From: Thioalkalivibrio nitratireducens | GTDB lineage: Bacteria; Pseudomonadota; Gammaproteobacteria; Ectothiorhodospirales; Ectothiorhodospiraceae | Reading direction: 5' to 3' | Assembly (NCBI GenBank): GCA_011390385.1 | Contig: JAABSN010000023.1 | Span: 1-27,503, forward strand | DNA length: 27,503 bases | Part shown: positions 7,883 through 27,503 of the stretch, one piece after another | How the letters are laid out: each line of letters begins with the position of its first letter | Numbering within the stretch: the stretch's first letter is position 1 | Translations under genes and position numbers: made by a program | The notes under the pieces: generated by a model | Told to the model about the DNA's origin: nothing | The model's database searches: none | What the model saw: only the letters and a program-made list of their open reading frames with translations

Positions 7883-8117
7883 GGATGGAACGCGACGAAG
7901 CCGATTCGCCCCTCGGGCTGAAGGGGCACCGCGGGCGTGGCTGCAGAGGTATGCGTATCTGGAATCATTTGCCGGACATTGGCCTGATCGGTCCGAACTT
8001 TATAGCCGATATGGAAACCATCCGAAAGCGCACCGAGCAAATTTTGTTGTCGCGAAGGGTCGGCTGGACCATGCGCCACCGGTTGCGAGGTCCTGGCAGC
8101 CTGTCGGACTTGGGCTG
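7883..8117. promoter_or_regulatory. Upstream region of the lut operon
   Basis: These 235 bases separate lutA from palindromic element A and must hold the lut promoter unless transcription starts inside the element. On the minus strand an AT-rich patch around 7995-8010 includes GCTATAAAG, a plausible -10 region. A short perfect palindrome, TCGGTCCGA, lies beside it at 7988-7996 and could be an operator half-site pair. No regulator gene of the LutR/LldR type is adjacent. Function is inferred only. Confidence 0.25.
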
Positions 8118-8389
8118 CTAGTGTCCTGTCACACGTCTAATGGCGTCTTCAGCGAGGCGAGAAGCGGTCAGATGCAAGGCACTTGCCCGCCGAGGTAGCC
8201 ACTCTACCTCAAGGGCAAGTAACGCCGCAGATGGCCGCTTCTCGCCTCGCCCGAAGGGAGCCCCCGAGCGACGCCAGCGCGGCGTTGCAGCGCTTGACAA
8301 TGGAATGGCCATTGCGCTGCGCGCTGCGCCTGGCCCTGACGCCGCTCGGGGGCTCTGAAGACGTCATTAGACGCGTGACAGGACACTAG
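8118..8389. mobile_element. Element A: 272-bp nested palindromic MITE-like element
   Basis: The ends are inverted repeats of 35 bp (8118-8152 and 8355-8389) with two mismatches, beginning CTAGTGTCCTGTCAC. Inside are two large hairpins. Hairpin 1 (8153-8249) has an outer 15-bp stem CGAGGCGAGAAGCGG/CCGCTTCTCGCCTCG. It also has a perfect 8-bp stem ACTTGCCC/GGGCAAGT (8181-8188/8213-8220) and a perfect 7-bp stem GAGGTAG/CTACCTC (8192-8198/8204-8210). Hairpin 2 (8258-8355) is closed by the 13-bp perfect stem GAGCCCCCGAGCG/CGCTCGGGGGCTC. There is no coding sequence or transposase. The element ends six bases before the next gene start. Its core is homologous to element B at 22756-22920. A non-autonomous mobile element is the best guess; a structured RNA gene is the alternative. 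Confidence 0.7.
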
Positions 8390-8395
8390 TGCGCC

Positions 8396-8773
8396 ATGCG
8401 GACAAATGGAGACCCTTTGACTCGGAATCACCCTCAATCTCGCGGGGACCTGCTGGAAGAGGCTGAGCTGTTCGACGCACCCGGCGGGGAATCGCTGCGC
8501 CTGCGCTTTCAGGGCCGGTTCGAAGGCCGGGTGGTGACGTGGCTGACCACACTGCAGGCCATCGGCAACCCGTGCAATACGGCCTACCCCGGCACCACCA
8601 CACCCAGCTACATCGAGGTGGGTGCGGACGGTCCCGACGGCATCCCGATCACTGCAGGTCTGCGGGTCGCCCGAATCGATCTCCCGACGGTACGCAAGGC
8701 GATGATCATGATTCGCGGCTACAAGGGACTCCGCCGCGGACGCTACGAATATGGTGGCGGAAGCGGGATCTGA
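8396..8773 (+). CDS. Small protein of unknown function
   Basis: A 125-residue frame from an ATG at 8396. The middle part (about 35-115) reads like a compact folded domain, with LRLRFQGRFEGRVVTWLTTL followed by YIEVGADGPDGIPITAGL and a basic C-terminus ending in a GRYEYGGGSG tail. I do not recognise a named family. No signal peptide or membrane segment is present. A TTG at 8417 has GGAG five bases upstream and may be the true start, giving 118 residues. Either start lies within 30 bases of element A, so its promoter is either inside the element or was displaced by it. The gene converges on the DUF3293-like gene with 7 bases between the stops. Reading frame length and composition support a real gene, but without homology evidence this is moderate. 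Confidence 0.55.
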   Translation: MRTNGDPLTRNHPQSRGDLLEEAELFDAPGGESLRLRFQGRFEGRVVTWLTTLQAIGNPCNTAYPGTTTPSYIEVGADGPDGIPITAGLRVARIDLPTVRKAMIMIRGYKGLRRGRYEYGGGSGI

Positions 8774-22755: not shown

Positions 22756-22920
22756 CTAGTGGGCCATGCGGAAAGTACGGTGACTATGGAGCATAGCCAG
22801 AAGCGCCGGAGCAAGGCGGGCAAGTGCAGGAATAGTGGACCTATTTCAAAACTTGCCCAACGCAGCACCGGTGCTTCTGGCGAAGCAATCTGGTACCGAA
22901 CTTTCCGCGTGGCCCACTAG
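22756..22920. mobile_element. Element B: 165-bp nested palindromic MITE-like element
   Basis: The terminal inverted repeats (22756-22781 and 22895-22920) match at 24 of 26 positions and start CTAGTGGGCCATGCGG. Inside is a second stem, CCAGAAGCGCCGGAGC (22797-22812) with GCACCGGTGCTTCTGG (22865-22880), two mismatches. Next is a perfect 8-bp stem GGGCAAGT/ACTTGCCC (22818-22825/22851-22858). Innermost is GGAATAG/CTATTTC (22829-22835/22841-22847) with one mismatched, non-Watson-Crick position. There is no coding sequence. The core aligns with hairpin 1 of element A and the ends share CTAGTG...CACTAG. A non-autonomous mobile element or a structured RNA are the two readings. Confidence 0.7.
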
Positions 22921-27066: not shown

Positions 27067-27503
27067 ATGAAAAAGCGACGGCACGCAAAGGATCGCCTGT
27101 CCTGGATCAGCGCCTACGCGTTGCGTCTGGCGCTGCTGCTGGGCGTCTGGTGGATCCTGAGCGGCAGCACCGATGACTGGTGGTTTGGTCTGCCTCTGGC
27201 CGTGGCCGTCGCCGCGGTCAGCCTGTGGCTGTCGCCTCCCGCACGCTTCCGGCTGCGCCTGCACCGCATGCCCCTCTTCGCCGGCTTCTTCCTCTGGCAG
27301 TCCCTGCTGGCCGGTTGGGACGTGGCAAGGCGCACGCTGAGCCCCGCGCTGCCGCTACATCCCGAGATTCTCCGTCTTCCCCTCGTCCTTCCCGAGGGCG
27401 CTCCGACCTGGTGGCTGATGCTGGTGATCAGCCTGCTGCCGGGTACGCTCAGCGTACGTCTGCGCCCGGACCGCATCCTCGAGGTTCACTGCCTGGACTC
27501 CCA
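27067..27503 (+). CDS. mnhE: Mrp/Mnh-type Na+/H+ antiporter subunit E, partial (runs off window)
   Basis: An open frame of 145 codons from the ATG at 27067 to the right edge without a stop. It starts MKKRRHAKDRLSW and has two hydrophobic stretches early (about 15-60), then a third near 118-130. The segment SLLPGTLSVRL followed by DRILEVHCLD is the MnhE/MrpE signature. Subunit E is part of a multi-subunit Na+(K+)/H+ antiporter in the inner membrane, which helps with alkali or sodium tolerance. Since hemG lies divergently upstream, E is the first gene of its operon here. That suggests an arrangement beginning with E, with further subunits beyond the window. The ATG is preceded by GGAG at four bases. 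Confidence 0.85.
   Translation, partial: MKKRRHAKDRLSWISAYALRLALLLGVWWILSGSTDDWWFGLPLAVAVAAVSLWLSPPARFRLRLHRMPLFAGFFLWQSLLAGWDVARRTLSPALPLHPEILRLPLVLPEGAPTWWLMLVISLLPGTLSVRLRPDRILEVHCLDS

Follow-up and report, generated by a model that had tools for sequence, protein, structure and literature searches.

ERIC sequences have been known since 1990-91, they reportedly occur in Gammaproteobacteria, as Zo is said to have described in 2011, and we know of no mover for them; Correia/NEMIS elements are IS630-related MITEs. ERIC and the IRU and RU-1 elements of Enterobacteriaceae and Vibrionaceae resemble the family reported here in being small, non-coding, palindromic and mobile, in forming one long stem-loop and in having no known mover, and ERIC share with it the motifs AAGGC and AACGC, which lie opposite each other in the stem. 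For ERIC, two papers give TA termini and duplication of TA at the target (PMC2229807, PMC2759123), and in the first of them movement of such repeats by a transposase is treated as hypothetical and the ends of RUP are shared with an IS630 (PMC2229807). The CIR elements of Caulobacter and Brucella, compared here by their description in the same paper, likewise consist of a linker between two long inverted-repeat arms, and differ from the elements A and B described below by a length of about 110 bp and by GANTC (PMC2229807).

The window, that is, the whole stretch of 27,503 nucleotides of Thioalkalivibrio nitratireducens DNA that was analysed, contains two such elements. Element A, of the long type, occupies positions 8118..8389 (272 nt, no strand assigned), with CTAG at either end and TA at 8119-8120 and 8387-8388. 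Its left terminal inverted repeat (8118..8152, plus strand) pairs over 35 nt at 94% with the right one (8355..8389, minus strand). Between them lie two hairpins arranged head-to-head on opposite strands. Hairpin I (8164..8239, plus strand) carries the core GCAAGGC..TAG..CTA..AACGC and reaches 74.9 bits with the covariance model, of which it is itself a training sequence; its outer stem is the inverted-repeat pair 8152-8250. Hairpin II (8268..8344, minus strand), which was outside the training set, reaches 47.7 bits (E 8.9e-13) and has TGG..CCA where hairpin I has TAG..CTA; its outer stem is the inverted-repeat pair 8258-8355. The two are separated by CCCGAAGGG (8250..8258, plus strand), and CCC(GAA/TTC)GGG-like strings are found at the same place in many long elements. 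Element B, of the short type, lies at 22756..22920 on the plus strand (165 nt) and contains a single hairpin (22801..22877, plus strand; 59.9 bits, E 1.3e-16, also outside the training set) between terminal inverted repeats of 26 nt with 92% identity (22756..22781, plus strand, and 22895..22920, minus strand). The inverted repeats of both elements begin with CTAG, so that TA is present at both ends of each, A starting with CTAGTGTCC and B with CTAGTGGGCC. Relative to shuffled sequences, A folds with a z-score of -18.1 and B with one of -14.1. Our preferred reading, to which we give a probability of roughly 0.6, takes A and B for members of a very large, pan-bacterial family of ERIC-like MITEs, non-autonomous DNA transposons that would be moved in trans by TA-targeting transposases.

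A preliminary description of the window, made from the letters alone, had listed the ordered blocks and stems common to A and B, and re-reading of both stretches found them in place. The core pattern fixes 18 bases and leaves the stems other than TAG/CTA free; it matches twice in the window and not once in 100 dinucleotide shuffles. Two of the blocks are not general features of the family. AGAAGCG..GCTTCT, taken as conserved, lies outside the core, AGAAGCG preceding GCAAGGC by 7 nt in A and by 5 nt in B, and is not maintained in other members, and TAG..CTA, taken as fixed, varies in its middle pair among 58 distinct copies of one genome (A-U in 23, G-C in 28, gapped in 7). The span initially assigned to A does hold a hairpin, but this is only the apex of an element that extends from 8118 to 8389 and includes the second hairpin on the opposite strand.

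The core pattern was found in at least 119 stretches of species genomes and in 7 viral contigs, the fold having been checked in some of these stretches only. The titles of the matched records name Gamma-, Beta- and Alphaproteobacteria, Deltaproteobacteria, Gemmatimonadota, Streptomyces, Planctomycetota, Elusimicrobia and Saprospiraceae. Searches with a covariance model, which the preliminary description had named as the way to further copies, indeed revealed them in many genomes. All 60 loci given to the model were matched, many of them being training sequences. The 49 genomes with a pattern hit, which by this choice have at least one match by construction, contain 2 to 98 matches each among at most 98 candidates scored. 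In an even draw from the Pseudomonadota, the phylum of Thiohalobacter, 137 of 398 genomes have a match with an E-value of at most 1e-6, 12 candidates being scored per genome and the centre of the draw being included in the count; for the phylum of Streptomyces the count is 15 of 198, with 24 candidates scored per genome and the centre again included. The E-values of the model are rough, as its calibration was short. The model R1, which was trained without A hairpin II and B, detects both of them, the former on the minus strand. In the Thiohalobacter genome G042, which holds locus L091, R1 finds 69 hairpins, namely 32 pairs and 5 single ones, and the order within the pairs is plus then minus in 32 of 32. 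With lengths counted from a constant point 57 nt ahead of the core, 33 of 48 long elements fall at 271-278 nt and 26 of 31 short elements at 166-170 nt. No hits in viral contigs were obtained with the terminal sequences of A and of B-type elements, and in the plasmid collection no record matches A or B over 80% of its length at any one place (E 1). As judged by the listings of a literature search with most subscription papers outside its scope, the family is not described beyond the known ERIC papers; titles and abstracts gave no paper about repeats with any of six terminal-repeat strings, one of which is contained in PMC4853030 (Xanthomonas oryzae).

Relatives of A and B insert at YTAR and leave TA on both sides. 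Thiodiazotropha endolucinida (L023, genome G001) has 202 copies of the terminal repeat with at most 2 mismatches, and the 20 element copies that were fetched all have TA flanks on either side, preceded by Y (C or T) in 20 of 20 and followed by R (G or A) in 19 of 20, with one C; the A belonged to the pattern by which these copies were selected, whereas T, Y and R did not. Two relatives lacking one of the Thiodiazotropha elements retain a single CTAG at the empty site, and element copies at other places in a relative reach up to 100% identity. In the wider set, TA is present at both ends in 50 of the 79 elements with matched arms, and in 47 of these 50 the distance from TA to GCAAGGC is 51-55 nt; 28 of 107 elements have no matched arms. 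The elements without matched arms or without TA at both ends count against the MITE reading.

The ends themselves are exchangeable to judge from pairwise comparisons, in which one and the same body occurs with different inverted-repeat pairs. A and L179 from Thiohalobacter are alike throughout (ends 91-94%, body 92%), whereas the body of L169 is 90% identical to that of A and its ends only 59-65%; within each of five compared elements, the two arms agree by 88-97%. The ends of B resemble those of L171-L173 from the same Thiohalobacter genome, and the host of the window is therefore probably related to Thiohalobacter. Lone end copies in Thiohalobacter have no insertion sequence behind them; short palindromes or single ends are found instead. 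Separately, L131, L189 and L190 are palindromes of about 37-60 bp that consist of the terminal repeat only, the hairpin body being missing.

When fetched loci were scanned for a further copy of their own end (at most 4 mismatches, 400-4000 bp), no element with a transposase inside turned up, and the spacing of the 69 hairpins in genome G042 implies no transposase-bearing element; both results count against the MITE reading. Of the candidate movers, PF13340 (IS5/IS427) was found in 6 of 13 element-bearing genomes, in 5 of them over the family cut-off, and was absent from 7. PF13358 (IS630) was present in 6 of the 12 element-bearing genomes tested. Its absence from the other 6, together with the joining of a conserved-fold body to many different ends, distinguishes the family from IS630-related MITEs, with which it has in common the TA target, as seen in relatives of A and B, and the non-autonomous nature. 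Speaking against these movers, neither PF13358 nor PF13340 was detected in genomes G042, G022, G001, G036, G033 and G030, despite 28-75 matches. In Shewanella G008, the left end of element L258 and the IS630-type insertion sequence L260 share CTAATACCAATY and later ATGATC, a partial match in which L258 is known from its left end only. An IS5-type insertion sequence of Acinetobacter (CTAGGGCGTGTCCTCATTTG) shows partial likeness to the ends of an Acidovorax element, across genera. These partial matches suggest that the ends of the elements derive from IS630- and IS5-type insertion sequences. A TA-targeting DDE transposase, IS630- or IS5-like, would then cut the tips of the element in trans, and its source would be whichever insertion sequence has matching ends.

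A Y1 (RAYT) transposase, which would act on hairpins in single-stranded form as with REPIN elements, can be considered as a different mover. The inverted hairpin pair and the high copy number are common to REPIN/RAYT systems and the family, the order of the two hairpins and relics of about 37-60 bp fit as well, and Y1_Tnp is present in 12 of 16 element-bearing genomes. It is missing from the remaining 4, one of which is a chromosome-level genome with 71 matches, so that the family has no constant Y1 partner; moreover, the family inserts with a TA duplication, which is not known as part of the RAYT pattern, and its ends differ from copy to copy. We consider a REPIN-like origin of the elements very improbable.

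The fold was analysed with two sets of sequences. Alignment A2 comprised 44 of 45 selected sequences, locus L011 having been left out for its appearance of a chance match; only 52-nt cores were eligible (87 of 120 among the matches listed), and 18 bases are invariant by construction because they are fixed by the pattern. Pairing cells amount to 79.1% as compared to 52.2% in shuffled alignments, and the covariation score is 0.654 versus 0.194 for shuffled and at most 0.246 for slid alignments. There is no excess of pairs changed on both sides (22 versus 21.7 in shuffled alignments) or of further pair types (90 versus 88.4), and relatedness may account for some of the excess in covariation. In genome G042, 67 R1 matches in 33 loci collapsed to 58 distinct rows, for which all counts lean to R1 as the alignment was fitted to it. 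In these rows, model positions 14, 15 and 17 (A, G and C) and both A of AACGC are constant; an exact AAGGC is present in 45, an exact AACGC in 43 and both in 35, TGG/CCA substitutes for TAG/CTA in many, and stem covariation is 0.769 versus 0.193 after shuffling. The conserved parts of the fold are an internal loop of AAGGC and AACGC, a stem P2 tolerant of G.A and an apical stem with a 5-nt loop. The selection for folding proposed in the preliminary description is borne out by many further copies and by covariation above the shuffled and slid controls, in statistics that ignore phylogeny.

The mismatches in the stems, counted irrespective of relatedness, are asymmetric. In P1, the non-Watson-Crick pairs of 107 unique elements comprise 269 G.T and 118 A.C. 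The 75 of these elements with 52-nt cores have 132 G.A and a single C.T among the non-pairs of P2, and 34 G.T and 7 A.C in the outer pairs of P3. Only a slight bias is seen in the terminal repeats, counted in 79 elements (104 G.T and 79 A.C; 51 G.A and 28 C.T). Tandem G.A is compatible with one strand only, in RNA and DNA alike, and the ratio of G.A to C.T in P2 shows that a single strand of the hairpin is under selection for folding.

Selection on one strand only would suit a role in RNA, the core being a mobile intergenic fold that alters transcript decay and is merely spread by transposition; with the head-to-head dimer, transcription of either strand would then yield one copy in the right fold. 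An effect of ERIC on mRNA decay has been reported in Yersinia (PMC2229807). Against a role in transcripts, the orientation of the elements relative to genes pointing one way is unbiased (sense/antisense 4/5 for short elements, 5/10 for long elements and 5/6 for those without matched arms), a weak argument given the small sample and the crude gene calls. Furthermore, nothing in the whole window matches Rfam 15 at the gathering scores, and at a laxer threshold four weak matches with E-values of 1 or more each were seen in 8000-8500, the region covered. Two readings prompted by short strings, a twister-sister ribozyme and an integron attC site, were dropped. An RNA function of the core appears unlikely to us. 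Transposition is the leading inference for the function of the fold, in view of the head-to-head pair and the constant distance of the hairpin from each end, which together give each end of a long element a hairpin on its own strand. A weaker suggestion is that the folded strand takes part in transposition itself, as a component of the substrate, and is not a regulatory RNA; it might then be extruded or single-stranded DNA to which the transposase or a protein of the host binds.

How the family relates to ERIC was assessed from the E. coli ERIC L309 and 11 loci on viral contigs found by their ERIC-type end, among which L310/L312 and L313/L318 are near duplicates by appearance. A and B have the TA termini of ERIC, TA duplication being evident from the empty site of another family member, and AAGGC facing AACGC beside the outer stem, which is our own criterion. 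They differ from ERIC in length (272 and 165 nt versus 127 bp) and lack the ERIC end TATACCC..; ERIC in turn have a longer apical stem, a shorter outer stem and no head-to-head pair. The likeness could be convergent, the ends being owed to a transposase used by both and AAGGC and AACGC being chance 5-mers, and R1 scores only 4.1 bits on the E. coli ERIC and gives no hits in the 11 loci with ERIC-type ends. Speaking for kinship, ERIC-type ends (TATACCC..CTTSAAGATG or a near form) occur in the family elements L014, L126 and L063, and GCGTT and GCCTT, which read AACGC and AAGGC on the other strand, are at corresponding places in 6 of the 12 ERIC-type loci, the near duplicates L310 and L312 included, and in one more with an insert. 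We regard convergence as a serious possibility, at odds below even. The family adds a new and very large form to a known type of element, and its conserved fold is real; of the undescribed system that the preliminary description had suspected, the conserved fold stands, whereas the elements are of the MITE type, kin to or convergent with ERIC, rather than a separate system.

Going further, the hairpin might be an independent, functional nucleic-acid module that is recognised in its folded, single-stranded form by a factor shared among distant bacteria, and that persists by exchanging its terminal repeats and is thereby moved by unrelated TA-targeting transposases, with ERIC as its enterobacterial branch; we put this forward tentatively. 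A structured family across phyla with a strand-specific fold and exchangeable ends provides a handle on ERIC-like movement, as the conserved positions indicate targets for mutation and the ends indicate insertion sequences worth testing.

Several smaller observations were made in the window. The right end of A abuts CTAGTGCGCCATGCGGA (8386-8402), which matches B's left end (22756-22772) at 16 of 17 positions, so that A apparently lies at the tip of a B-type end that survives as a relic. The P2 arms of A (8181-8188/8213-8220) and B (22818-22825/22851-22858) are one pair of 8-mers in swapped order (ACTTGCCC/GGGCAAGT). Inversion of the hairpin alone would not produce this, and the swap may be due to chance or to a former exchange of arms. 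CTGGCAGCCTGTCGGACTTGGG is present in inverted copies at 461-482 and, just left of A, at 8093-8114 (91%), perhaps a further small repeat family. A weak model match at 27315-27366 (14.6 bits, E 0.02) is probably due to chance.

In other genomes, hairpin strands of the Longimicrobiales genome G021 were distributed by replication arm as 26 minus and 7 plus versus 15 plus and 8 minus, a possible bias that was not used because it was counted by eye with arm borders drawn after looking. The same genome contains direct tandem arrays of hairpins with periods of 171 bp and 249 bp (e.g. 3738532-3739291 and 207192-207765). Finally, comparison of L127 with L128, as well as L311 and L320, revealed extra short palindromic inserts within the bodies, with CCCGAAGG or CCCTTCGGG-like strings, and these inserts are common to Thiodiazotropha elements and ERIC-type loci.
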